64,000 nt of DNA from Hydrogenothermaceae bacterium. GTDB lineage: Bacteria; Aquificota; Aquificia; Aquificales; Hydrogenothermaceae. This document shows positions 2 through 45,349 of the stretch, piece by piece (position 1 is the stretch's first letter; each line of letters opens with the position of its first letter). The notes beneath the pieces were generated by a model. The model was given only the letters and a program-made list of their open reading frames with translations, was not told where the DNA came from and did not search any database. The stretch covers positions 1 to 64,000 of the forward strand of contig WIAL01000020.1 of the NCBI GenBank assembly GCA_015519975.1, in the 5' to 3' direction. A program made the translations under genes and the position numbers.

Positions 2-1336
2 TTTATAGGTTTAATTATATATAGGAAAAACAGAAAAGAAATAGTTTATAAGATTTTATTGTTTATTTTACTTACCAATCCAGTTTATTTTTTTAGTTCA
101 CTATTGCCATCGATATTTCACTATATAAAAACTTATATATTAAAAATATCAGAAAATTCTTTCATATTACCAATTACTGTAAGTAAAGAAATAACAGAAT
201 TAACGGGTATTTCATTAGCTGAATTTATAGATTTTACTACCAATAATATAATTATATTAATTTTAGCAATAACTGGAATATTTTTATTATTCAAAACCAA
301 TAAAAATATATATCTATCTTTACCATTTATAGTAATTGGACTTTTGTCATTTTTTGGAGGAAATAGATTTTTAATATATATTTCTCCATTTATTGGTATG
401 GGATTGGGTTATATTACTTATCAAATATACAACTTTGCAAATAAAAAATTAACTTCAAATCTTTTAGTTAAATTTATTTACTCTATTTTAATTATTTCTT
501 TGGTATTTTTTTCAATACCTCCAAATACTGTAAAAGCCAATATTAAACCAATATTTAGAGAAAACATCTATGAAGATTTAGAAACTATTTCTAAGATAGA
601 AAAAATGCCTCTAGATTCATTTATAATGTCATGGTGGTCTTATGGGGGATTATTAACTTACTTTTTTGAAAGAGGAACATATGTAAGCAATTCTTCTATG
701 GATTCAATAAAATTATTTGCTATTGCAAATATTTTAATGTCAAATAATGAAAGAGATGCATTGAATATTATTTCTTTTTTAACAAATAACAAAAAAATAT
801 TTTATCAAAGTTATATTAAAACACCTGAAGATTTTTTAAATGCCTCCTTAAAATACAGTAAACCACCTAAAAATAATGTTTATTTATTTCTATTCCCCGG
901 AATGTTAACAAATAAAGTTATATATACTTATGGAACTTATTCAGTAAAAAATAATCAAAAATCAGGAGTGGATTTATTCTTTAAATGTTTACCTAAATTA
1001 GAAAATATATTTGACTGCGGAGTAATAGAATATAACTCTTTTTCAGGATATATAAAATTTAAAAATAAAAAATTTAAAAATCAATATCTTAAAGATATTT
1101 TAATCATAAGAAAAAATGTTTTTCCAAAACTTATTCAAAAGAAGATTTTCAATGAAAATGGTACTAAAACAATTGAAATTATCGAAACAAAAAAGGATGT
1201 GTATATAATAGTAGCTAATAAGATTTTTATTAATTCTATTTTAAATAAGATGTTTGCATTAGAAAGTAATTTCAAACATTTTAAATTAATTTATTCAGAT
1301 TTTCCTTATATCATCGTTTACAAGGTGGAAAGATGA
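2..1336 (+). CDS. pglB: PglB/STT3-like oligosaccharyltransferase, C-terminal part (5' end outside window)
   Basis: The reading frame is open to the first base of the window, so this is the 3' part of a longer membrane protein; a TTG at 59 is probably internal. It resembles the second half of bacterial PglB, which moves a lipid-linked glycan onto protein asparagine in the periplasm. The visible part has several transmembrane segments, a GGNRFLIYISP stretch matching the PglB region with the conserved Arg, then a soluble domain opening with WWSYG at 632-646. The family signature is WWDYG, so the Asp is Ser here. Its stop codon overlaps the start of the following prepilin gene, which suggests coupled translation and a pilin substrate. 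The family call is fairly secure; the substrate is inference. Confidence 0.75.
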   Translation, partial: FIGLIIYRKNRKEIVYKILLFILLTNPVYFFSSLLPSIFHYIKTYILKISENSFILPITVSKEITELTGISLAEFIDFTTNNIIILILAITGIFLLFKTNKNIYLSLPFIVIGLLSFFGGNRFLIYISPFIGMGLGYITYQIYNFANKKLTSNLLVKFIYSILIISLVFFSIPPNTVKANIKPIFRENIYEDLETISKIEKMPLDSFIMSWWSYGGLLTYFFERGTYVSNSSMDSIKLFAIANILMSNNERDALNIISFLTNNKKIFYQSYIKTPEDFLNASLKYSKPPKNNVYLFLFPGMLTNKVIYTYGTYSVKNNQKSGVDLFFKCLPKLENIFDCGVIEYNSFSGYIKFKNKKFKNQYLKDILIIRKNVFPKLIQKKIFNENGTKTIEIIETKKDVYIIVANKIFINSILNKMFALESNFKHFKLIYSDFPYIIVYKVER

Positions 1337-1638
1337 ATTCAAAAGGCTTTTCTATTATAGAATTACTTGTTGTAATTTTTATAATTACTCTATTAACGTC
1401 TATAGGATTTATATCTATTTCAAAATATCTAAAAAATTCTTACAGGGCAACAGCAATGAGCAATGCAAGAAATTGTTTAACTATTGTACATGCAGCTTTA
1501 TTAGAAAATGAAACTCCTAATGTACCGCAAAATTGCCAAATAAATAATGATTTTACATCTTGCACATGTACTGTAGAAGGATTTGCAGGGTCTGTAACAT
1601 GTACACTTGAAGAAGGAGGGATAGTTGAATGTAACTAA
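1333..1638 (+). CDS. Small cysteine-rich type IV prepilin-like protein
   Basis: The 101-residue protein opens with a class III signal, MNSKG^FSIIE, cut by prepilin peptidase after Gly5, with the conserved Glu at mature position 5 and a hydrophobic helix up to about residue 30. The mature protein is only about 96 residues and has six Cys (48, 68, 77, 79, 90, 100), enough for three disulfides. There is one N-X-T site (N59-E60-T61), but it lacks the acidic residue at -2 preferred by Campylobacter PglB and is followed by Pro. The start codon overlaps the stop of the oligosaccharyltransferase gene. It could be a major or minor pilin or a pseudopilin; which one cannot be told from sequence. Confidence 0.85.
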   Translation: MNSKGFSIIELLVVIFIITLLTSIGFISISKYLKNSYRATAMSNARNCLTIVHAALLENETPNVPQNCQINNDFTSCTCTVEGFAGSVTCTLEEGGIVECN

Positions 1639-1652
1639 ACAAATACAAACTA

Positions 1653-2090
1653 TTATTTAACCTTATATACAAACTCTATTTCTGCCTTTTCGTTTGGTTT
1701 ATTAGAGTTTTTAGCTACAACTCTTACTGTATAAACTTTTATCTGATTACCATTAATATCTACAAAAGATTCTTTTCCAAGTAAATATGCTTCTACACTA
1801 TAATTCCCAAAATTTGATTGAATTAAATCTATTTTGCATGTATTTGAAATACTTGTTGGACAAGGTGTACAGGAACTACCATTACATTTTAAATCTCCGG
1901 AGAGGATATTGCTAATTACAAGGTTTGCTCCACCTTTTGCTGCTTCTAAAGCAGTATAATATCTTTTTTCAACCCCTGAAATCTTAGTTCCACTAGTTAA
2001 AAAATATAAAAGAGCTCCAATAAATGCCAAAGCTATTAATCCTAATACTAGTGTTGTTACTAAAGCTATTCCTTTCTGATTATTTTTCAT
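1653..2090 (-). CDS. pilX: PilX-like minor pilin
   Basis: This 145-residue protein has a prepilin leader MKNNQKG followed by the hydrophobic stretch IALVTTLVLG. The mature position 5 is Thr rather than Glu, as in PilX and GspK, the minor pilins at the tip of the initiation complex. A four-Cys cluster lies in the middle (residues about 69-85). It is the last gene of the minor pilin operon, 9 bases after pilW, and faces the + strand prepilin gene with a gap of only 14 bases. The family assignment rests on leader type, size and gene order. Confidence 0.7.
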   Translation of the reverse strand: MKNNQKGIALVTTLVLGLIALAFIGALLYFLTSGTKISGVEKRYYTALEAAKGGANLVISNILSGDLKCNGSSCTPCPTSISNTCKIDLIQSNFGNYSVEAYLLGKESFVDINGNQIKVYTVRVVAKNSNKPNEKAEIEFVYKVK

Positions 2091-2099
2091 ACTATCACC

Positions 2100-3080
2100 T
2101 TATAAATCCATTGGTTTAACTTTTATTATTAAAGGCTTCCATCTGTAGTGTATATAATCAGCAGGGAGTTTTAAAAGTTCACCATTCACGATAACGCACT
2201 TATTAGAACCACAATCTGATGCTTGAGCAAATGTATAATTTAAATCATATCTTCCTTCTTGAACTAAAATATATACATTTATAGCTTTTAGTTTACTTCT
2301 AATATCACCATTTGTTGCAGGTAAAGTAGTTTGATTTTCTTCCCCTGAATCTATTACTCCATTTCCATCTAAATCAATATCAAAAGTAACAGTCCAATCA
2401 GCAACACAGTTTAATATAGGTTCTCCAGGTGATGATGTCCCTACTTTTCTTTTAAGATTATAAATATTAGGATTGCATCTATCTATTAAATTTGAATTTG
2501 AAAGATAGTATGTTATTTGTTCACAGTAAGAGTCTGAGCATCCATTTGCTGCCCCATTATATACAACATCTCTTACAGGAAAAGCAATGTATATTTTTTT
2601 ATTTATACATGTTTTACTTATTAACGTAATTGTATCTGGAGCTGTAGATTCTATTTCTCCTTTATCAAAAAATTTCTTATTTTCTGTATCAATTACAACA
2701 ACATAAGGATTATTAGTCTTATCTTCTCTTCCATCATAGGTTATCTCCAAAGTACCTCCATTACATTTTGCAAGAATATATCCTCTTGTTTTTGAATTTG
2801 TATTATTTAGTGTAGTTCTTAAGATAAGTTCTTTATTAGTACTATCCCAATAAATTATTTGTGCAGTTTCATCTTCAGGTATTCCATATCCTACATGTTC
2901 TAAGTCTAATCTTAAAATATCAAGACCTATCAAACTTTCTATCTGGGTTGAAATTTTTTCACTCTCTGATTTAAAACCTTTTAATAGCTTTATATATGTA
3001 AGATACGCAGCCGAAAGTACAACTCCTACGATAAAAAGCGTAACTAAAAGCTCTGTAATTGTGAAACCTTTTTTATTCAT
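2100..3080 (-). CDS. pilW: PilW-like minor pilin
   Basis: The 326-residue protein has the prepilin leader MNKKG^FTITE with Glu5, a transmembrane helix to about residue 28, and a long extracellular domain with several Cys pairs. Length, and its place between pilV-like and pilX-like genes, match PilW, a minor pilin that helps prime pilus assembly and present PilY1. A loop DLDGNGVIDSGEE (near residue 235) looks like a calcium-binding DxDxNG loop. Its ATG overlaps the end of the pilV-like gene by four bases, so translation is probably coupled. Confidence 0.75.
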   Translation of the reverse strand: MNKKGFTITELLVTLFIVGVVLSAAYLTYIKLLKGFKSESEKISTQIESLIGLDILRLDLEHVGYGIPEDETAQIIYWDSTNKELILRTTLNNTNSKTRGYILAKCNGGTLEITYDGREDKTNNPYVVVIDTENKKFFDKGEIESTAPDTITLISKTCINKKIYIAFPVRDVVYNGAANGCSDSYCEQITYYLSNSNLIDRCNPNIYNLKRKVGTSSPGEPILNCVADWTVTFDIDLDGNGVIDSGEENQTTLPATNGDIRSKLKAINVYILVQEGRYDLNYTFAQASDCGSNKCVIVNGELLKLPADYIHYRWKPLIIKVKPMDL

Positions 3081-3469
3081 GAAGACCCCACTAAAGTTTC
3101 TATGGTGTGTGAATAAGTTTTACCTTTATATGTCCAAGTTACAGTTATTTTTACTTGTTTAATTTTTCCTGCAACTATTTCTGATGAAGTCACATTTATA
3201 TTATAGGTAATATCTGCATTTCTAATTTTCCTATTAATTTCAAATGTATCATTTGTTGGAATATTACTTAATCCAAAATTTCTATATTTTTCTGCGTATT
3301 CATTAGCAATTTTTACAGCTTCATCTCTAATCAGATTTCTTGTAGATATTTCATACGCTGTTATTAAAGCAGATAAAAGACCAAGGAGCAGTATAGCAAG
3401 AATGACTAAAGCTACCAAAGCCTCTACTATTGTAAAACCTTTATAATTCCTATGGATTCTGATTAACAT
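3077..3469 (-). CDS. pilV: PilV-like minor pilin
   Basis: The 130-residue protein has a basic leader ending NYKG^FTIVEA, with the cut after Gly11 and Glu5 conserved, then the hydrophobic helix ALVALVILAILLLGLLSA. Size, the VEALVALVIL pattern and its order between fimT-like and pilW-like genes fit the PilV/GspI type of minor pilin. The start lies 20 bases inside the preceding fimT-like gene, so the two are translated from overlapping frames. Confidence 0.75.
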   Translation of the reverse strand: MLIRIHRNYKGFTIVEALVALVILAILLLGLLSALITAYEISTRNLIRDEAVKIANEYAEKYRNFGLSNIPTNDTFEINRKIRNADITYNINVTSSEIVAGKIKQVKITVTWTYKGKTYSHTIETLVGSS

Positions 3470-3911
3470 TATTACATTTCTCCATTTTTACTCTTATATC
3501 ACTTACTCTAATGCAGTCATACTGTGCTTCATTACCATGTGGATAATAAATTGGTCCCCCTAAAAATGTACCTCTTTTACTTATATTCACAGTATTTCCA
3601 GTAAAACTATTTTTAAGTTGAATACACTTTATATTTCCTGTTCCATATAAAGATATACAGTCATTATCACCAGTATCACATTTCATACAAACTTCATTTC
3701 CATTTACAACTACATCAAGTTTTATTTTTTCAGCAAATGCTTTTGCCCGTGCATCTTGCAAAAATGCGTAAATTGCTTTTGTATCACTTTCTATATTGTA
3801 CTTTTTTATCCATTTAAAAAACTGTGGTATAGCAATAGATAAAATTATAGCCGTAACAGCAATAACAACTAAAAGCTCTATTAAACTAAAACCTTTTATT
3901 TTTCTAGCCAA
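3450..3911 (-). CDS. fimT: FimT/GspH-like minor pilin
   Basis: The 153-residue protein begins MARKIKG^FSLIEL, a standard prepilin peptidase site with Glu5, followed by a helix rich in Val, Ile and Ala. The segment after the helix (AFLQDARAKAFAEKIKLDVVV) matches the pattern of FimT/GspH pseudopilins. FimT proteins in some bacteria bind DNA during natural transformation, which would fit the dprA gene elsewhere in the window, but that role is inference. It overlaps the end of pilY1 by 16 bases. Confidence 0.75.
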   Translation of the reverse strand: MARKIKGFSLIELLVVIAVTAIILSIAIPQFFKWIKKYNIESDTKAIYAFLQDARAKAFAEKIKLDVVVNGNEVCMKCDTGDNDCISLYGTGNIKCIQLKNSFTGNTVNISKRGTFLGGPIYYPHGNEAQYDCIRVSDIRVKMEKCNNVNQNP

Positions 3912-6900
3912 AGTATTATTTCTCCTTCTAATGATCCAGGTAATACAGGTATACCACCTTGCTCAGATGCTACTCCTCGCTTAAATTCTGTAGCTCTTCC
4001 TCCCTTATTTGAAAAAGATTCAGCTTTGAATTGTTCTATATTACCACCAGATAATTGTACCAAATACATTAATATAGTATTAGTTACAGTATAACCTGGA
4101 CATCTCTGACTGAATGCTGGATCTCCTGTCGCACAGTTCATAGCCCATGCCCTTGATCTTCCACCAAATCCACATAAATCAGCTGTAGGCTGAGTAGTTG
4201 TAAAAAATACAATATTGTTAGATATTGATGGGTCTGAGATATTTCTTTCTTTTAAATACACATTATCTCCAAGATCAAGATCTATCATCCATGCTCCTTG
4301 AGTCTTATCTGCAATATTTTCACATGCAAGTTCCGTTGTTGCAGAATGAACTGGATTGATAGTTCCTGTTGGACAATTATTATTCTCATCACACAAGAAA
4401 GGAACTCCATAAAGAGCATTTTGACTTTGGTCATCATCTGTTTTATAGAAATATCTACCTGTTCCAAAATAAAGGAACCATTTATCAAAACATTTGCTTG
4501 CTATTACAGGAGCAGTAACAGGATTATTTGCAAAGTTAAGTAATGTCTCATCAAAATCCCATTGATTAGGATTTGCACTTCCAGTCCAAATTTTTAATAC
4601 ACCACCTTTAGCTGTTGACTTTCCAACTTTTCTAGAATATCCTAAAAATACATAATCAGTTTGACCATCTTCATTTACATCAAGTCCATTATTAAAGAGC
4701 CTTCCTCCAAAAGAGTTAGAGAAATTTTGACCTAAATCTTTATCAAGTAATAAACTTCCCGTTGCTAAATCTAAAACAAATATATGCAAATTTTGGTTTG
4801 TATATCCTTCATATGATGTGGGTCCAGATGCAAATATTACAAAATGTTTCCAATTTCCATTTCCATCTTTTCTTTTAACATAAGCCGGACCTGAATAAGT
4901 AAATCCAAGATTAGGATTAGTGAATTCCCAAAGAAGTTTAGGGCTGTTTATATCTGTTACATCAAGGGCATAATATTCTGATAGCCCAACACAAGTACCA
5001 GACGAGAGATCAGGACAGGTATCGGACGGTGGTATAACACAGTTTGTTCCACTGCAGTTACAACCGCCACCAAGCCTAAGTCCTCCAACTAAAACTATTT
5101 CATCCTTACCATCGTTATTATAATCTATATTTATTAAATAAGGAGCTAAGTCGTGTATATACAAATGACAATAGTCCGGATCTGCTAAATACCTTAAATA
5201 AGGTAAAGCATGTTTCGGGATAAATGCCCAAAGTTCCTTTCCTAAGTCCGTTCCTGTTAGCTTAGCAATGTAATTTCCATTTAAATCTTGAACTTTACCT
5301 GCTTCAAAAGCGTGTAGCATACCATCATTGGAAGCAGTAAATATTACACCATGTTTTAAATTTCCATTTTTATCTTTATAATAAGCTATTTTAGGAGATG
5401 AGTAAATAATATCTGCTAATTTCCAAATATCTCCTGCATCATTAGTTTTTCTACTTCTACATCCAGGAATATCATCACCTCTTATATAGTTGACTAAATT
5501 TTTATAGTTAATAGAATTACTTGTATTATCAATTAAACAATTTGGAAATTCATTTATATCATTACCTAAATTGTTTTTAAAACTTTGTAAATTAGTATCT
5601 ATAAATTCTATTAAAGAATTATTATTCCCAACTGTATATATTACTCTATCAGAAGATTGTCTATTTTTAAGCTGTTCTCCTGCTTCCCAAAGATATTTTA
5701 CTTCATCTAGAGATGTATATGCTGGTGTAATTTCAGTTCCTTTTGTACCATCAGGATTTGAAGAAAAACGGTGAATTTTAAGATTTCCATAACTATCCAA
5801 AACAAATTCTAAAATATTATCATCTTTTATGCTTAGTTTATTATCCTGATTTGTATCTTCTCTTATATTCTGAGCATCTTTTGTATTTAAAAACCAATAT
5901 GTAAATAACTGACCTATCCAGTTTACTTTATAATTACCAAAAGTTTTTTGGGGATAAAATACAGCTTGAGTTACTAATGCACCTTTTGAATCTTTTTCTG
6001 ATAAAACAGATACAGATGTACCTGAAGCAGTCCTTTGTAATATATTTCTCAAAAATTTTAGAAGGGAATTTTTTATTTCTATAGCATTTTGGGCGCTTAA
6101 AAAATTATCAGGGACTCCATCCCCATTAGAATCCCAATCAGGAGATGATGGAGGAAGCGGTGTACAGGCACTTCCTCTTCCACTTCCACAATCATCCATT
6201 TCACATGTATCCCATGGATATTGTCCACCATTTCCATTCCAGTGAGCAGTATCATCTGTACCATACGGCCATGTATATTGGGAAATATCAAAAGAACCAT
6301 AAACAGCTACATTTTTAAGGGATTGCTCTCCAGTGCCACCTAAAAATAGCCCTAAAGAATAAATAGCTTCCACGTTAATTGTAAATTCATTACCACTTAA
6401 ACTGGACAATATTCTGTTTAAAAGCTTATGCATCCAATAAGCTGGAACAACTGGATCTGCAGAATAATTCTCATATCCTGTTTCAATATTACAGGTCAGA
6501 TATAAGTTTCCTCCAACATTCCACTGTCCATCTGAAGCAAGTATTACAAAATTTTTAGCACAAGGAACAGGCTTGCAATTTTGCCTTTGATAATCACAAA
6601 AGTAATTTGGATCTGCTGCTGTTCCAGGATCTATAGTGAATCCATTACTATAACTATGATCATTAGATTGTTTAAAGTAATCATAAGCTTCCCACATTGC
6701 AGGTGCTGTACCTGTTGCACCGCCAGGGGATACATAATTTATAGCTCTTTTTACATAAGTGTAAGGGTGATCAGGATCTGCATTATTACCATTAGGATAA
6801 TCTCCTATATATACTTTATCTGGATATATAAATGTATCGTAAAATAAAACTCCAAATCTTGGACGATTTTTTTCATTTTCAAATTCTTGTAGTACTCCTT

Positions 6901-7444
6901 TTATTCTTTCTTTAGGAACCGAAATTCTATATCCAGCATCTGTTATTAGGATACATGTATCGCTAGTACATGCCAAATCTGGATCGCAATTTATATCTGT
7001 AAAACTGCTACATCCTTCTGGCCTACCTCCTGTTAATGCCCATCTAAGAAGGTCTATCCTCGCCATTAAATGATAATTCAAACAACTACCTTTATAAGGT
7101 GTATTTCTATATAAAGTTGTTGATTCTGAACAATTTTCAGGAGGTGACGTGGTTTCTTCCCAAATCCATTCTATACATCTTCCTCTCCTATTATAGCTAC
7201 TACATACATATTGATAAACCTTATCAGGAATAAAATATCCTTCCTCATCTCCATTATAAGTACCACTATAAGCATTTCCGCTCATACTTCCACTTTTGTC
7301 AACTATTAAAAGAACATTAGGAGATACAGCAGTATTTAAAAAAGGAGGAACTTGACAATAATTTGTCATACTGTAAGAAAAAGAAAAATTGAAAATTAAA
7401 AGATTTAATATCAATGTTATTAATAAACTATTTAATAATTTCAT
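3896..7444 (-). CDS. pilY1: PilY1-like pilus tip adhesin / assembly protein
   Basis: The 1182-residue protein has a Sec signal peptide (about residues 1-24), a von Willebrand A-like domain with a MIDAS site DKSGSMSG (Asp49), and a C-terminal half typical of the PilY1 beta-propeller (TASNDGMLHAFEAG, then LWAFIPKHALPYL). Several Asp-rich loops look like calcium sites: DTNQDNKLSIKDD, DSNGDGVPDNF, DYNNDGKDE and DVNEDGQTD. PilY1 sits at the tip of type IV pili, is needed for assembly and retraction control, and acts in adhesion and surface sensing. Many Cys residues in the N-terminal half suggest disulfides. It lies in the minor pilin operon and overlaps both its neighbours. Confidence 0.9.
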   Translation of the reverse strand: MKLLNSLLITLILNLLIFNFSFSYSMTNYCQVPPFLNTAVSPNVLLIVDKSGSMSGNAYSGTYNGDEEGYFIPDKVYQYVCSSYNRRGRCIEWIWEETTSPPENCSESTTLYRNTPYKGSCLNYHLMARIDLLRWALTGGRPEGCSSFTDINCDPDLACTSDTCILITDAGYRISVPKERIKGVLQEFENEKNRPRFGVLFYDTFIYPDKVYIGDYPNGNNADPDHPYTYVKRAINYVSPGGATGTAPAMWEAYDYFKQSNDHSYSNGFTIDPGTAADPNYFCDYQRQNCKPVPCAKNFVILASDGQWNVGGNLYLTCNIETGYENYSADPVVPAYWMHKLLNRILSSLSGNEFTINVEAIYSLGLFLGGTGEQSLKNVAVYGSFDISQYTWPYGTDDTAHWNGNGGQYPWDTCEMDDCGSGRGSACTPLPPSSPDWDSNGDGVPDNFLSAQNAIEIKNSLLKFLRNILQRTASGTSVSVLSEKDSKGALVTQAVFYPQKTFGNYKVNWIGQLFTYWFLNTKDAQNIREDTNQDNKLSIKDDNILEFVLDSYGNLKIHRFSSNPDGTKGTEITPAYTSLDEVKYLWEAGEQLKNRQSSDRVIYTVGNNNSLIEFIDTNLQSFKNNLGNDINEFPNCLIDNTSNSINYKNLVNYIRGDDIPGCRSRKTNDAGDIWKLADIIYSSPKIAYYKDKNGNLKHGVIFTASNDGMLHAFEAGKVQDLNGNYIAKLTGTDLGKELWAFIPKHALPYLRYLADPDYCHLYIHDLAPYLINIDYNNDGKDEIVLVGGLRLGGGCNCSGTNCVIPPSDTCPDLSSGTCVGLSEYYALDVTDINSPKLLWEFTNPNLGFTYSGPAYVKRKDGNGNWKHFVIFASGPTSYEGYTNQNLHIFVLDLATGSLLLDKDLGQNFSNSFGGRLFNNGLDVNEDGQTDYVFLGYSRKVGKSTAKGGVLKIWTGSANPNQWDFDETLLNFANNPVTAPVIASKCFDKWFLYFGTGRYFYKTDDDQSQNALYGVPFLCDENNNCPTGTINPVHSATTELACENIADKTQGAWMIDLDLGDNVYLKERNISDPSISNNIVFFTTTQPTADLCGFGGRSRAWAMNCATGDPAFSQRCPGYTVTNTILMYLVQLSGGNIEQFKAESFSNKGGRATEFKRGVASEQGGIPVLPGSLEGEIILWLEK

Positions 7445-7721
7445 TTTTCAAAACCTCTATTATGTCATAAACTTTATCTTTTTCACATTTTGAAGAATTT
7501 ATAATAAATTTAATATTTTCTCCTTTCTCAAGCGTCGAAATATTATCAATTTTAAACTCTCTTTTTCCTTTACATGATAAAGACTTAACATCAACTATAG
7601 CTTTATTATCTTTAATATCTATCACTATCCCTCTTAACACTAAATTATCATAAAGTTCTTTACTAAAACCAAATTCTGCTATTATAAATATAAACAAAAC
7701 TATAGAACTAATAAATCTCAT
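7428..7721 (-). CDS. Small secreted protein of unknown function, first gene of pilY1 operon
   Basis: I do not recognise this 97-residue protein. It has an N-terminal signal peptide (residues 1-20, ending about FGFSKE), then a beta-rich sequence with alternating charged and hydrophobic residues and only two Cys (in LSCKGK and SSKCEK), which could form a single disulfide. Its 3' end overlaps the start of pilY1 by 17 bases, so it is very probably translated with pilY1 and acts in the periplasm, perhaps as a pilus assembly accessory. That role is inferred from position only. Confidence 0.6.
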   Translation of the reverse strand: MRFISSIVLFIFIIAEFGFSKELYDNLVLRGIVIDIKDNKAIVDVKSLSCKGKREFKIDNISTLEKGENIKFIINSSKCEKDKVYDIIEVLKNEIIK

Positions 7722-39705: not shown

Positions 39706-39960
39706 ATGACACCAGAAGAAAAAAAACATTTAGAGGATTTTGTAGCAAGAGTATTTACATTTGCATTTGAACTTGGAACTCAATTAGATGAACTTCATAA
39801 AGAACTTCGCCAAATGAGATTTGAAACTAAAGATAGAGATTTAGAAGCAGCTTTAATAAATTTAGAACATGCATTTTTCATGAACGCACAGGCAATAAAT
39901 ATATTAAAAGAGCAGGCAAGAAATGCAGTCATACCAACAAGAAAAGCACCAAGAAAATAA
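39706..39960 (+). CDS. Small helical protein of unknown function
   Basis: The 84-residue protein is acidic to neutral and predicted mostly helical, with no signal peptide: MTPEEKKHLEDFVARVFTFA, then a heptad-like stretch ELGTQLDELHKELRQM, and a basic tail. It follows an SD (agaggttaaag) and a -10 box. It overlaps the next gene by 38 bases in another frame. I do not recognise it; a role in the cytoplasm with the next gene is a guess from the overlap. Confidence 0.6.
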   Translation: MTPEEKKHLEDFVARVFTFAFELGTQLDELHKELRQMRFETKDRDLEAALINLEHAFFMNAQAINILKEQARNAVIPTRKAPRK

Positions 39961-40327
39961 AATTCCAACAGTTTTTTTAGAGGCTTTTGAGCTTGTAGAA
40001 GAACATAAGATTGAAAAAATAAAAGATGTAGAAACTCCATTGGTACTGGTAGAAAACATTGAAAATTTTAAAGAAAATACATTTTGGATGAAAATAAGGA
40101 ATATATGGGTTCTTATCGGTAAAATACCTCCATTAAAGCCTGAAAAAGATGACATCGTTTTTTTTAAAGAAGAAGGAAAATGGGGACTTTTTAAATATTT
40201 AGAAGAAAAAGATGAACTTGTATATTTAAGAGATGCCAAAGATGAAAGAACAACAAAAGTGCCAAAAGAGGTTTTAAATAATTTACAGCTTTTTGGAAAA
40301 GTTTTAAGGGTTCAGGAAAAAGTATGA
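39923..40327 (+). CDS. Conserved-looking protein of unknown function
   Basis: The 134-residue protein has no signal or membrane segment. It is rich in Glu and Lys; a C-terminal half (FWMKIRNIWVLIGKIPPLKPEKDDIVFFKEEGKWGL, in part) looks beta-rich and recalls the S24/LexA-type fold only vaguely, with no Ser-Lys dyad evident. The start is uncertain: an ATG at 39923 lies inside the preceding gene. Its stop overlaps the tlpA-like start, implying coupled translation. Confidence 0.55.
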   Translation: MQSYQQEKHQENKIPTVFLEAFELVEEHKIEKIKDVETPLVLVENIENFKENTFWMKIRNIWVLIGKIPPLKPEKDDIVFFKEEGKWGLFKYLEEKDELVYLRDAKDERTTKVPKEVLNNLQLFGKVLRVQEKV

Positions 40328-40815
40328 AAAAGTTAACTTTTATTTTACTGTTTATCACTATATTTTTTGCATGTAATAAAAAAGAAGAAAAAAAAGAAAA
40401 TGTACAAATTCCAAAAGGTGCTATTTTAGTAGACAAAAATGGTAACCCAATACCTCTGCCAAAAGACAAACTAATAGTGGTTAATTTCATGGCTTATAGC
40501 TGCAGTTCATGTATGAAAGAAATTCCTGTTTTAAAAAAAGTCTTAAAAGAGCCTGAGTTTAAAAATAAGTTTGTATTAATTGCTCTTGCAATTGACGCAG
40601 ATAAAAATGATCTTTCTGATCCAGATTTTCCTATTTATGCAAACAATAATGTAAACCAAGTTAGATTTCCTGTCCCTGGCACCCCAACAACATATATAAT
40701 CACTCCAGAAGGGAAAAAATTAGTTTACATATTAGGTGCCGTTACAGAGGAAAATTTAAGGAATTTCTTAAGAGAAGCCTTGAAAAAATATAAAGGGGCA
40801 AAAGCCCCTACATAA
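40324..40815 (+). CDS. TlpA/ResA-like thioredoxin-fold lipoprotein
   Basis: The 163-residue protein has a lipoprotein signal (ITIFFAC, Cys17) and a thioredoxin domain with the active site CSSC (about residues 59-62) and the cis-Pro loop GTPTTY. Such periplasmic proteins reduce or exchange disulfides, for example in cytochrome c maturation. That would fit ccsB elsewhere, and also the many Cys-rich envelope proteins near it. The last codons (KGAKAPT) run through a terminator for the facing LPP20 operon. Confidence 0.85.
   Translation: MKKLTFILLFITIFFACNKKEEKKENVQIPKGAILVDKNGNPIPLPKDKLIVVNFMAYSCSSCMKEIPVLKKVLKEPEFKNKFVLIALAIDADKNDLSDPDFPIYANNNVNQVRFPVPGTPTTYIITPEGKKLVYILGAVTEENLRNFLREALKKYKGAKAPT
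40794..40809 (-). terminator. Terminator of the CsgG/LPP20 operon, inside the tlpA-like gene
   Basis: The arms aggggc (40794-40799) and gcccct (40804-40809) with an AAAA loop form a 6-bp stem. On the minus strand a T-rich tract (tttatatttttt) follows, so it ends transcription from the LPP20 side; on the + strand the tail is weak. Confidence 0.7.
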
Positions 40816-40818
40816 TTA

Positions 40819-41418
40819 TCACTGACCACCAAATTCTTTTTCTATCTCTTTATCTAACTCCTCATAAGCTTTTTTAGCCTGGAACTGCTGCCATAAAGCC
40901 CTTTCGTTTTTAAAACTTGATAACGTAGCCTGTTTAACAGCTTCTTTAACAGATGCAGGATCAAGTACGACTAGAACATAAAGCTCTCCACTTGGAGAAA
41001 TCCACATATCTTTTTGTCTTGATCCCTGTAATACTGTAGATGTAACTTGCTTAGATACCTGAGCTGAAACTTTATCTACAGTTTGTTCATCTCCAACACC
41101 TATTTGTTGAGTAAAGTTTTTAACCATATTTTTAACTTTAACTGTTAATATTCTTGCAAGCTCATCTCTTGCATTAGCAAGTGCCTCAGTTCTTGCAAAC
41201 TGTATTCCAGCTTTTCCTATTTTTGCAGAACCAACTGCTGCAAGTCCACCTTCCATTTCTGGACTTAAAACCCATTTGGGAGCATTTGCAAACTCATTTG
41301 CCCACTGCTGGTTCTGAATTTTAGCAGGTTGCTGTTGAGGAGCAGGCTTTTTCTCTCCACAAGAAATAAAAGCAATACTAAAAGATACTGCAACTGCCGT
41401 AACCAAAATTTTTCTCAT
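40819..41418 (-). CDS. LPP20-family lipoprotein
   Basis: The 199-residue protein has a lipoprotein signal with lipobox AFISC (Cys20), a short Pro/Gln linker and an LPP20-like domain: APKWVLSP, LAAVGSAKIGKAG, an ARTEALANARDELARIL helix and a DMWISPSGELYVLVVLD end. The family includes Helicobacter LPP20 and Vibrio/Campylobacter FlgP, an outer-membrane flagellar disk protein. It is the last gene of an operon with a FlgT-like and a CsgG-like gene. Confidence 0.85.
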   Translation of the reverse strand: MRKILVTAVAVSFSIAFISCGEKKPAPQQQPAKIQNQQWANEFANAPKWVLSPEMEGGLAAVGSAKIGKAGIQFARTEALANARDELARILTVKVKNMVKNFTQQIGVGDEQTVDKVSAQVSKQVTSTVLQGSRQKDMWISPSGELYVLVVLDPASVKEAVKQATLSSFKNERALWQQFQAKKAYEELDKEIEKEFGGQ

Positions 41419-41437
41419 AGTTTTTCCTCCATAAAAA

Positions 41438-43342
41438 TTATTTTAAGCTAACCTTTATTTTCGTAGGTGTAAATTCTTCTACCTTATAACCTAAAATACT
41501 TTCAAGAGCATTCGCAAGATAAACAGGCTTCTCAAGATATTCTACTCTAAATTTACCTATACCTAAATCTTCAACAGATTTCACCCATGCAAGTTTTTGA
41601 AGTTGTTGTTTAAAATCAAAATTTTTAGACACAGAATCTATACCTTCTACTATCACTGTAACAACTTTTCTTTTAGCCTTTAAGTATCTATCTATCTTTT
41701 GGAGTATATCGTCTGCAAGTTTTGGAGCAAGTGCTTTCATCGCTTTATTTTTTGCAAATTCATCATTCATACCTGTTCCTTTCGCAGAAACTGATCCAGA
41801 TGCAAGGATTCTGATTCTTCCTTTATCTCTTACAAGCAGATAATACTGAGCTTGTGCATTTACTACGTTAAATGGTGAAGATATTCCATATCCTATATTT
41901 TGCCCAGCTTTAGATTGATATAAAAAAACTATTTTTCCGACAATAGTAGCTCCTGCTAAAGATTTAGAAAGTAAATGTCTTAGTGTGATAAATCTTTTAG
42001 AAGCTATAGCTCTTTCTATTTCATAAGGATCTATTCCTGGCTGTGAAGCAAAATCATAAACCTCAAAGCCCTGTTCGTTTAAAACATTAATTAAATCAGT
42101 TGTTACAGGATTCATTTCATCTAGAGTAATACGATTTCTATCCTGTGTGATAAGTAAAACATTAAAAGCTGTATTTTTTGAAATTAAACTTAGAGCTTTT
42201 TCTGCCTTTTCAGGATAAACACAGCCTTTTATAGTAACTGCTACAGAATCCCCATAATTTTTTTCATCAACAATTTTTACATTATCAATAAAACCTTTCA
42301 CATCCTTAGTTATAACTTCATCAAGAAGTTTAAAATTTTCAACAACGCTTTTTACAGAAACCTGTGTACCTAAAGCTTTTTCAAGTGCATCCCATTTTGC
42401 ACGGGCAAAGGCTTCCATTTTTGCAGAAGCATAGTCAGTTGTAACAGCAGCTTCACCTGTTCCAGTGGAAGGAATACATTTCACTTTATATATTTTTCTT
42501 GGCTCTTGTTCCTGTACAGCAGGAGAAGATGAAACATATGATGGAGATGGAATAGTTTTTTTAGGTGTTTTTTTAATGTGTGGAACATTTATACTTTTCT
42601 CTTTGTGTACCTTTAATGGAGGTCTTGCAGATTCTTTTCCTGTATATTCGCTGATTTTAATATCTGTAATTAATGCAGGACTTTCAGCTATAGATTTATC
42701 AGTAACAAACATATGTTTAAAGAATAGTCCAAATCCTCCTATTTCTTTTTCAAATTTTACAGGTTTTAATATTTTTCTCTTACCATCTATATAAAACTTA
42801 ACTTTACCATTTTTATATGAAATTTGAACAGTATGAATTTGCCCTTTCTCAATATTTCTGCTAAAACCTCTTCCGAATAAATTTCCTGCATCTTTTGGTG
42901 TAGGAGACACTCCAAATTTTACTTTATCATAATGACCCTCAACAGCCAAAAGTAATCCTGCATCATAAATATAAAGGTTTCCTCTTAAAATTTCAGGTTC
43001 TTTATCTTTTGAATAAAGACCAAATCTAACAAAAGGACCTCCATCTTTAAATGCGATATAAGTAAATTCTATTGAAAAATTTTCAGGAAATTTTAATGAA
43101 CGATATAAAAAGGTTCCTTGTTCCAAAGGCCTGATCCATCTTTTACCTTCATATTCAACACAGTCATAGCTTTTGAAAATAATCTTAAAATCTGGAGATA
43201 CATCTCCTAAAGGACAGTTGGAACCATCAAAATAATATAAAACTTTATCCCCTGGTACAAAAGGAGGAGAGGACATAAAAGGAGACTGGGCTAAGGATAT
43301 ATTAAAGATTAGCCCAATAAATAATAATAACACTTTTCTCAT
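41438..43342 (-). CDS. Large secreted protein with LamG-like and FlgT-like regions
   Basis: The 634-residue protein has a Sec signal peptide (about 1-19). Residues about 80-235 look like a concanavalin/LamG-type beta sandwich (FSIEFTYIAF, HTVQISYKNGKVKFYIDGK). After a Pro-rich linker, residues about 285-390 resemble the FlgT N-terminal domain (SAKMEAFARAKWDALEKALG), and about 390-634 form FlgT/CsgG-like alpha-beta repeats (FNVLLITQD, then TVIVEGIDSVSKNF). It is probably periplasmic or at the outer membrane, working with the CsgG-like and LPP20 proteins of its operon. The exact domains need profile searches. Confidence 0.65.
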   Translation of the reverse strand: MRKVLLLFIGLIFNISLAQSPFMSSPPFVPGDKVLYYFDGSNCPLGDVSPDFKIIFKSYDCVEYEGKRWIRPLEQGTFLYRSLKFPENFSIEFTYIAFKDGGPFVRFGLYSKDKEPEILRGNLYIYDAGLLLAVEGHYDKVKFGVSPTPKDAGNLFGRGFSRNIEKGQIHTVQISYKNGKVKFYIDGKRKILKPVKFEKEIGGFGLFFKHMFVTDKSIAESPALITDIKISEYTGKESARPPLKVHKEKSINVPHIKKTPKKTIPSPSYVSSSPAVQEQEPRKIYKVKCIPSTGTGEAAVTTDYASAKMEAFARAKWDALEKALGTQVSVKSVVENFKLLDEVITKDVKGFIDNVKIVDEKNYGDSVAVTIKGCVYPEKAEKALSLISKNTAFNVLLITQDRNRITLDEMNPVTTDLINVLNEQGFEVYDFASQPGIDPYEIERAIASKRFITLRHLLSKSLAGATIVGKIVFLYQSKAGQNIGYGISSPFNVVNAQAQYYLLVRDKGRIRILASGSVSAKGTGMNDEFAKNKAMKALAPKLADDILQKIDRYLKAKRKVVTVIVEGIDSVSKNFDFKQQLQKLAWVKSVEDLGIGKFRVEYLEKPVYLANALESILGYKVEEFTPTKIKVSLK

Positions 43343-43352
43343 TTCTATCCTC

Positions 43353-44537
43353 TTAATATAAAGGCTTTCTTTCTACAAGCTGTCCAAGTTTTACTCTCAT
43401 TATTTGATCTTTTTCTCCTTCTACTATCGTCCAAGATTTATCTGCCTGTACTTGATTAGATACTTCTAAAGTAACTGGAAGTTTAAACATGTCACAGCTT
43501 TCTTTTCCTGATAATGGATCAGTAACTGATTGGAATGAATATACATAAAACTCCTGTCCTGGCTGAACTCCCATTTTTGATCCAACATTTATAAGAGCAT
43601 ATCTTTTTTCTTTATCTGGAGATGTTCTAAGCTGAATTATATATCCTCTAACTTTGAAATATTTTGAAAGCTCTGGTCTTATACTCTCTACAGCATCCAT
43701 TGCTGCCTTTTTTACTCCACCAATCAATGTGTCATAATTAAATGTTGGTGTTTTTCCTAAAATTTCTTTTCCTGAAACATTTTTTGCAAAAACAACTTCT
43801 CCTGTTTGAACATCAAGTATTTTTATAGTCAGATCAGTTATGATATTCCATCCTTCTTGAGTTTCTGCCCCTGCTGCAAGCAACGCTCCTGCTAAACCTA
43901 AATATTTTTCAGCAGCTTTTTTTGCTGAAGATAAATCAACCCATTTAATAGTAACGTTATTTACAGATCCTGTAACTATATATCTAACTCCAGCAAGCTT
44001 TCCAAGTTGAATCAATGTTTTTTCGTCAGTTAATCCTGACTGCTGGAACTGCTGTTCTTGTAGAATTTTTTTCAAGTCTCTTCTTGTATAAACTTTAGCT
44101 CCTCCCATATTAACGAGCTGACCAGCAACACCTTCAGCTATACTCTCACCAAGCTTTGCATTTACTTCTCGTGATACAGCTTCCATTTGTTCTTTTCCTT
44201 TTCCTGCCTCAACCTCTGCATATCCAACCCCAACAGCCCCTGGTGCTACAACTAAACCTGCTGCACCTGCTCTTCCAGTCTTATATTTATAGTTTCTCTG
44301 TGCTTGAAATACTTTAGCTACATCAAATGTTGTGTTATTTGTAAAATCCAAGACAGCAACGCGAGGTATAGCTTGCTTATAAGCTGTTTTACATACATCA
44401 GGAATTTGTTCTACCTGTCTGTCTTCAGGTGTAATTGGTAAAGCAGAAGGGTCAATTTTCTTTGGTCCACATGAATTAATTGTAAAAACTAATGCGGTAG
44501 TTAAAAATGCTGAAGATAAAAAAGCGGTTTTTTTCAC
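43353..44537 (-). CDS. CsgG-family outer-membrane lipoprotein
   Basis: I chose the GTG at 44537 because an aaagggagg SD lies just before it and a lipoprotein signal follows (lipobox TINSC, Cys23); a longer frame from 44633 has neither. The 394-residue protein has the CsgG pattern: RVAVLDFTNNTTFD, a membrane-inserting Gly/Ala-rich region, GESIAEGVAGQLVNMGGAKV, YTRRDLKKILQEQ, VRYIVTGSVNNV and LTIKILDVQTGEVV. A further domain of about 110 residues follows. CsgG forms the outer-membrane export pore for curli; homologues are widespread with other roles. It is the first gene of the operon. Confidence 0.87.
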   Translation of the reverse strand: MKKTAFLSSAFLTTALVFTINSCGPKKIDPSALPITPEDRQVEQIPDVCKTAYKQAIPRVAVLDFTNNTTFDVAKVFQAQRNYKYKTGRAGAAGLVVAPGAVGVGYAEVEAGKGKEQMEAVSREVNAKLGESIAEGVAGQLVNMGGAKVYTRRDLKKILQEQQFQQSGLTDEKTLIQLGKLAGVRYIVTGSVNNVTIKWVDLSSAKKAAEKYLGLAGALLAAGAETQEGWNIITDLTIKILDVQTGEVVFAKNVSGKEILGKTPTFNYDTLIGGVKKAAMDAVESIRPELSKYFKVRGYIIQLRTSPDKEKRYALINVGSKMGVQPGQEFYVYSFQSVTDPLSGKESCDMFKLPVTLEVSNQVQADKSWTIVEGEKDQIMRVKLGQLVERKPLY

Positions 44538-44581
44538 GATACTTCCTCCCTTTGATTTCTTATGCACATATTTTAATTTTA

Positions 44582-44610
44582 ATATTAGTACAGTATATAC
44601 ATTTTGACAA
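44582..44610 (-). promoter_or_regulatory. Promoter of the CsgG/LPP20 operon
   Basis: On the minus strand TTGTCA (44610-44605) is followed after exactly 17 bases by TAATAT (44587-44582), about 45 bases before the GTG start. The spacer contains the palindrome gtatatac. Confidence 0.6.
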
Positions 44611-44692
44611 GTGAATTTTACCTGAATTTGCAAAATGTTTCATTTTATATTAAGAATTAAAAGGGTAACTAAATGTTTCAAGGGGGTCTATT

Positions 44693-45349
44693 ATGAAAAA
44701 ATTCACTGCATTGATACTTATTTCAGCTGTTTTAGTTTCCTGTGCAGGAAAAAAAGTGGAAAGTCGCAAAAAAACCTTGTCTTCCGAAAGAAAAGCTCAA
44801 ATTTTAGAAAAATCAAGAGCAAATTTTGAGGAACTTGAAAGAGAAGCAGAAAAGAAACCTGAAGAGCTAACTTTGCCAGAAACAAAAGAAGAAGCAGTAA
44901 TGCCTACAGTAAAGAAAAAACCAACAGTTAAAAAACAACCCAAAATCGTGAAAAGGGAAAAACCTAAAAAAGTTGAAAGACAAATAAAAACTAAGTATCC
45001 AATGAAAAATGGACTTCCTATATGGGTTTATAATCCAAATTATGGAGGGTACTTAGGAGCTGTAGGTATTGCAAAAAAAACTGCAAAAGGTGGTTATCCA
45101 CAGCAGAAAAGAATAGCTATAATGATTGCACAAGCAAACCTAGCAAAACAAATAAGACTTTTAGTAAATGCTGAAATTTATACAGAAAAACTAAGAATAA
45201 GTAAAAAAGATTATGAAATTTACAAATCTAAACTTAGATCTTTGTCAAAACAGGAAGCATCAGCTTATTTAAGAAATACTGTTGTAAAAGATGAATGGAT
45301 CGATCCTAAAACAGGAGACCTGTATGTCTGGGTTGTACTTGAAAAATAA
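44693..45349 (+). CDS. Second LPP20-like lipoprotein, divergent from the CsgG operon
   Basis: The 218-residue protein has a lipoprotein signal (VLVSC, Cys17), a long basic/Pro linker with repeated KKxPxVKK units (about 70-95) that could cross the peptidoglycan, and an LPP20-like C-terminal domain (GLPIWVYNP, YLGAVGIAKK, DPKTGDLYVWVVLE). It diverges from the csgG-like gene across 155 bases and has a strong SD (aaggggg). It probably works with the facing operon. Confidence 0.75.
   Translation: MKKFTALILISAVLVSCAGKKVESRKKTLSSERKAQILEKSRANFEELEREAEKKPEELTLPETKEEAVMPTVKKKPTVKKQPKIVKREKPKKVERQIKTKYPMKNGLPIWVYNPNYGGYLGAVGIAKKTAKGGYPQQKRIAIMIAQANLAKQIRLLVNAEIYTEKLRISKKDYEIYKSKLRSLSKQEASAYLRNTVVKDEWIDPKTGDLYVWVVLEK

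Follow-up and report, generated by a model that had tools for sequence, protein, structure and literature searches.

A candidate outer-membrane ring assembly of Aquificota with FlgT-like domains divided between two proteins

Introduction

The window analysed here, a stretch of 64,000 nucleotides from a Hydrogenothermaceae bacterium (Aquificota; assembly GCA_015519975.1, contig WIAL01000020.1, positions 1 to 64,000), carries a block of four genes for envelope proteins: a CsgG-like outer-membrane lipoprotein, a secreted protein of 634 residues that we refer to as FT, and two LPP20 lipoproteins, LPP20a and LPP20b. Between them, the CsgG-like protein and FT contain counterparts of the N, M and C parts of FlgT, and they look like a FlgT that has been split over two genes. 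We tentatively favour the interpretation, in which our confidence falls a little short of even, that the block encodes the core ring of an outer-membrane assembly which resembles a FlgT/FlgP ring in construction and is independent of flagella. A more far-reaching claim, that Aquificota and their relatives have a previously undescribed ring machine in the outer membrane, independent of flagella, which combines the split FlgT with exchangeable lectin modules, up to three LPP20s, an MltC-type transglycosylase of its own and an outer-membrane barrel, is possible, but we regard it as rather doubtful.

FlgT, FlgO, FlgP and LPP20 are familiar chiefly as components of flagellar rings. In Vibrio, for instance, the genes flgO-flgP-flgT encode a TolB/CsgG-fold lipoprotein, an LPP20 lipoprotein and FlgT. 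A conserved six-gene relative that is independent of flagella and has its own wall-cutting enzyme would show the origin of such rings; if true, the more far-reaching claim would suggest that the FlgT/FlgP rings of flagella arose from a general kit for envelope rings. The block also offers a thermostable system for structural work. In the literature searched, we found no description of the set: LPP20 combined with CsgG gave nothing, and Aquificae combined with CsgG gave only a general survey of outer-membrane pores.

FlgT-like domains in two proteins

FT consists of a signal peptide, a ConA/LamG-like sandwich, a disordered Pro/Lys linker, an FlgT_N domain of the SHS2 type, a middle domain and a C-terminal beta-alpha-beta domain. 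Its signal peptide is an ordinary one, unlike the lipobox-like cysteines of the CsgG-like protein (INSC-G) and, as read from their sequences, of LPP20a and LPP20b (C20 and C17). In Pfam searches with FT alone, FlgT_N is matched at E = 0.0014 and Laminin_G at 0.22; within the FT family, 16 of 25 members match FlgT_N, the best at 5.2e-10, and Cys289 and Cys374 are invariant across the Aquificota alignment. The sandwich is weak by sequence but clear in the AlphaFold model (residues ~28-232, predicted local distance difference test (pLDDT) mostly 85-96), where it matches CBM66 and further ConA-like folds at ~3e-7. The CsgG-like protein matches the Pfam families CsgG (9.8e-11), LpoB (3.9e-5) and FlgT_C (5.4e-5), as well as FlgT_M at a value below threshold (0.0099). 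Among its relatives, CsgG and FlgT_C are matched in 14 of the 14 scanned and LpoB in 13.

Fold comparison leads to the same relative for both proteins. When their AlphaFold models (mean pLDDT 77.5 for FT and 76.0 for the CsgG-like protein) are compared with the PDB in Foldseek, the best match of each is Vibrio FlgT, a protein of the H-ring (PDB 3w1e, 8z5n), at 1.2e-9 for FT and at 8.4e-13 (3w1e) for the CsgG-like protein, which next finds CsgG (8e-6) and PelC (9e-6). The block is nevertheless not FlgT, because its domains are split and it is not flagellar: FlgT_N occurs only in FT and FlgT_M/FlgT_C only in the CsgG-like protein, one of the two products is a lipoprotein, FT has an added lectin-like module and C-terminal domain, and in two phyla its occurrence is not tied to flagella.

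A second likeness emerged at the profile level. Searches with single block proteins against the PDB in phmmer gave nothing useful, so profiles were needed; the best PDB sequence match of the FT profile is chain C of entry 9hmf (171 residues, 'Lipoprotein, putative'; 4e-6), and the alignment with 9hmf_C (residues 86-167) runs ungapped from the helix through the next strands, including the insert region. Entry 9HMF is the motor scaffold of Campylobacter jejuni (PMC12222027), and the size and name of chain C fit FlgP, the protein of the basal disk. In the SHS2 family, ring formation accompanies an insert between the helix and the second strand, of which FlgT is another case (PMC12222027). FT has an insert segment at this place (residues 329-349 are of low confidence in the monomer model), which, judged from the sequence, may be a hint of ring formation, short of proof that a ring forms. 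FT differs from the flagellar FlgP in being larger and non-lipidated; LPP20 proteins are part of the set in both cases. LPP20a and LPP20b score 57.1 bits (2.6e-15) and 30.5 bits (5.1e-7) against a cut-off of 25.9 bits for PF02169, and by this measure are members of that family.

Taken together, the parts resemble those encoded by Vibrio flgO-flgP-flgT, with the difference that the block has no FlgO match in Pfam, is joined to MltC and a barrel-like protein, and is non-flagellar. A likeness between FT and Leptospira LipL46 (NCBIfam NF033164, weakly matched by FT residues 290-591 at 4.9e-6) did not amount to membership, since its 25.5 bits lie far under the cut-off of 400. The sequence-only reading that preceded this analysis had described the four reading frames, the CsgG-type lipoprotein, the pairing of LamG-like and FlgT-like domains in a secreted protein, and the two LPP20s, the divergent one with a basic/Pro linker; all of this is borne out.

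The N-terminus of FT is an exchangeable module: in relatives it is LamG-like, a C-type lectin (PF00059, ~1e-10 to 1e-11), a C-type lectin with PAN, or missing. To find LamG-like, C-type lectin and PAN domains replacing one another on a single scaffold is unusual in bacteria, and suggests that glycan recognition at the envelope is variable. In three other Aquificota genomes (loci L029, L030 and L035), a canonical CsgG (2.9e-36 in the single one scanned) carries a LamG-like module of this sandwich family at its C-terminal end, with no curli genes adjoining. A relative at 43% identity to FT lies on a contig labelled Thermoplasmata archaeon (L086), which is probably a mis-binned bacterial contig.

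Conservation and the larger gene set

We searched 136 Aquificota genomes and 395 genomes of a second phylum (former Deltaproteobacteria), many of them incomplete drafts. Strong FT matches are found in 23 of the Aquificota genomes, named ones being metagenome-assembled genomes of Aquificaceae and Hydrogenothermaceae, including one of Hydrogenothermus sp. Wherever the contig reaches, the CsgG-like gene lies upstream of FT and an LPP20 gene downstream, except for two divergent copies in one genome (G075). As the same gene order recurs in other species, the block is not a chance arrangement, and the conservation check proposed in the sequence-only reading came out positive. In the second phylum, full-length FT is present in 14 genomes, and of the 13 loci fetched about 10 have a CsgG-like gene next to it; the close CsgG-like type (E below 1e-100; 47-51% identical to that of the window) occurs in five of the 395, every time beside FT (chance 2.6e-8).

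The same reading had taken the unit to be self-contained, which it is not: the window's block is half of a larger set that is split here. Two genomes (G002, G004) have a near-gapless six-gene run, LPP20a-LPP20c-MltC-CsgG-like-FT-LPP20b, in which the MltC-type lytic transglycosylase has SLT plus Mltc_N domains, and a third (G079) has the order CsgG-like, FT, LPP20a, LPP20c, MltC, with LPP20b divergent. The Aquificaceae genomes that we looked at (G009, G018, G023) have the set in two separate clusters, and in the window's own genome the partner pair LPP20c-MltC lies on contig 45:2138-3749 (L095), beside argG. The LPP20 genes change places. In Hydrogenothermaceae, LPP20a orthologues belong to the block; in Aquificaceae they are neighbours of MltC, and the third place of the block is taken by LPP20b in Aquificaceae and by LPP20a in the window's genus, where LPP20b is divergent.

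Occurrence data agree with this larger set. With shared ancestry ignored, 16 of the 23 genomes with the block have MltC, compared with 4 of the 113 without it (p 3.6e-12); for LPP20 the numbers are 22 and 9, respectively (p 3.3e-17). The MltC count is a lower bound, as G009 has the gene by BLAST. Furthermore, a protein of ~250 residues with a C-terminal Phe and no Pfam match, barrel-like in appearance and presumably a barrel, comes after the MltC half in G023 and G009; a protein next to FT in the second phylum shares 38-41% identity with it. A separate OMP_b-brl protein of 188 residues follows LPP20b in Aquificaceae.

Further loci with similar contents deserve mention. A divergent FT/CsgG copy in G075 (L144; contig 39, 517-9499) stands in a run with MltC and LPP20a, which also holds a lipoprotein of 1355 residues with a Gly-rich start and a secreted protein of 349 residues without Pfam match. 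In another Aquificota family, MltC and LPP20 head a run that contains PEGA and FecR domain proteins but lacks FT (L143; G125 contig 1, 6450-13215), perhaps a related system. Several former-Deltaproteobacteria loci (L088, L089, L126, L132-L134) hold several FlgT_N-, CsgG- and LPP20-type genes together with barrel-like proteins, some of them also a Mla-like lipid ATP-binding cassette transporter.

A proposed assembly

In the assembly that we propose, the CsgG-like lipoprotein would oligomerise beneath the outer membrane and FT would dock on the resulting ring, the two proteins together providing the N, M and C parts of FlgT. FT might then form a second ring through its FlgP-like insert, around which the LPP20 lipoproteins could be packed as a disk. 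The MltC-type enzyme would open the peptidoglycan locally, and the small outer-membrane barrel, where present, would join the ring to the membrane. Lastly, the lectin-like module of FT may bind glycan, either of the wall or of a surface polysaccharide. Because this module would bind glycan and is exchangeable, the machine is probably an envelope anchor or scaffold rather than a curli-type secretion channel. Since its genes show no tie to flagella and come together with a wall-cutting enzyme and small outer-membrane proteins, the set would probably form a separate envelope ring or anchor in hot-vent bacteria.

Several observations weigh against this interpretation. For the FlgT matches, whole-chain template-modelling scores in Foldseek are low (0.18-0.33), as the orientation of the domains differs or only part of them match, and the FlgT similarity of FT and the CsgG-like protein is therefore one of domains. 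When FT was compared, profile against profile, with the LPP20 and the CsgG-like alignments, neither result was significant. It is its modelled fold that suggests a glycan-binding role for FT's module, and the 250-residue barrel-like protein was not found in the part of the window's genome that was searched. Finally, all 23 Aquificota block genomes have at least one flagellar marker (FlgH or FlhA), and the Aquificota genomes checked that have neither (G078, G096 and genus g13) are also without the block.

Alternative explanations

The last of these observations, together with the shared part list of FlgT domains and LPP20/FlgP-type lipoproteins, favours the alternative that the block encodes a flagellar accessory, an H/T ring or basal disk of Aquificota motors, as a counterpart of Vibrio FlgO/FlgP/FlgT encoded apart from the flagellar genes. 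We nevertheless consider this unlikely. Most flagellated Aquificota do without the block: FlgH is present in 19 of 23 block genomes and in 85 of 113 without it (p = 0.59). Likewise, FlhA occurs in 6 of 15 FT genomes of the second phylum and in 7 of 14 without FT (p = 0.72). No flagellar genes adjoin the block in the neighbourhoods examined in either phylum, and the window holds no more sigma-54-type sites than expected by chance. An apparent near-linkage to flgHIJ in two genomes (G009, G023; 15-20 kb) was set aside, as housekeeping genes lie between, the direction differs, and in G010 the distance is 63 kb. Flagella are thus not sufficient for the block, nor are they clearly linked to it.

It seems improbable that the block is an exporter of the CsgG or PelBC type, in which protein or polysaccharide would pass through a conduit made of the CsgG-like ring and a barrel, and FT serves as plug, adaptor or surface anchor, for which HfaB in holdfast anchoring of Caulobacter provides a comparison (PMC6707917). 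The ring lipoprotein does share its fold and Pfam match with the curli channel CsgG, HfaB and PelC/PelBC; it scores 41.8 bits against PF03783, above the gathering score of 20.8, has the fold matches to CsgG and PelC given above and has barrel-like neighbours, and both the lectin-like modules of FT and the fusions of a LamG-like module to canonical CsgG in related Aquificota would suit an exporter. Its CsgG match, however, spans only profile positions 31-153 of 210, and reading its Gly/Ala-rich insert (residues 74-116, of low confidence in the AlphaFold model) as a membrane hairpin failed, the amphipathic-strand test being negative against shuffles. No substrate gene, exopolysaccharide synthase, holdfast, pel or curli gene is linked to it; as read from translations, curli subunit or accessory genes are present neither in the window nor in the relatives' neighbourhoods. 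With a partial domain and no curli partners, membership of the curli channels is not supported. The sequence-only reading had offered an outer-membrane secretion or disk-like assembly, of which the disk or ring gains from the FlgT folds, the FlgP-like profile match and the conserved block, whereas secretion does not, for want of a substrate or curli gene and of a full CsgG match.

Equally improbable is a peptidoglycan-remodelling complex in which an LpoB-like protein and the LPP20s position or activate the MltC-type enzyme while FT binds wall glycan: the LpoB matches of the CsgG-like relatives, the dedicated and sometimes co-operonic MltC and the occurrence of MltC beside LPP20 in an Aquificota family without the block would fit, but the LpoB fold is common to many unrelated lipoproteins, the CsgG-like protein with 20.9 bits is no LpoB by the equivalog cut-off of NCBIfam TIGR02722 (110.55), and such a complex would not account for the FlgT_C, FlgT_N and barrel parts.

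Gene layout and surroundings

The block and its signals (window 40,794-45,349) are listed in Table 1. The genes for the CsgG-like protein, FT and LPP20a form a closely spaced minus-strand trio (44537-40819) with intergenic gaps of 10 and 19 bp. For the first of them, the GTG at 44537 is best taken as the start, as it is preceded by a good Shine-Dalgarno sequence (GGGAGGAAGT) and lies downstream of the proposed promoter. The terminator that had been read from the sequence is well formed. The promoter fared less clearly: it is well placed and plausible, but promoter-type sites in the window number 14 where 17.3 are expected from shuffles, which is chance level.

Table 1. Features of the block, in window coordinates
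Feature	Position	Strand	Basis
CsgG-like / FlgT_M+FlgT_C-like outer-membrane lipoprotein, 394 residues	43353..44537	-	GTG start; Pfam, Foldseek
CsgG domain of the CsgG-like protein, residues 124-259	43761..44168	-	
FlgT_C of the CsgG-like protein, residues 314-376	43410..43598	-	
FT, secreted protein, 634 residues	41438..43342	-	signal peptide, domain matches, AlphaFold
LamG/ConA-like beta sandwich of FT, residues 28-232	42647..43261	-	AlphaFold, fold matches
FlgT_N / SHS2-type domain of FT, residues 288-376	42215..42481	-	Pfam and profile matches
LPP20a lipoprotein, 199 residues	40819..41418	-	PF02169
LPP20b lipoprotein, 218 residues, long basic/Pro linker, divergent here	44693..45349	+	PF02169
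Sigma-70-like promoter match TTGTCA-17-TAATAT, upstream of the CsgG-like gene	44582..44610	-	site scan
Intrinsic-terminator-like hairpin AGGGGC-TTTT-GCCCCT, then T-rich tail	40794..40809	-	well formed

Around the block lie ATP synthase genes, lepA, a birA-like gene and the gene for a TlpA-like lipoprotein. As had been stated, no curli or flagellar gene adjoins it in the window; FlgH and FlhA of this genome are encoded on another contig. The TlpA-like thioredoxin lipoprotein (CSSC; 40324-40815) and a protein of 134 residues (39923-40327) keep their place beside the block in several genomes of the same genus. Elsewhere in the window (1333-7721) lies a run of type IV pilin-like genes, including one for a PilY1-like protein of 1182 residues.

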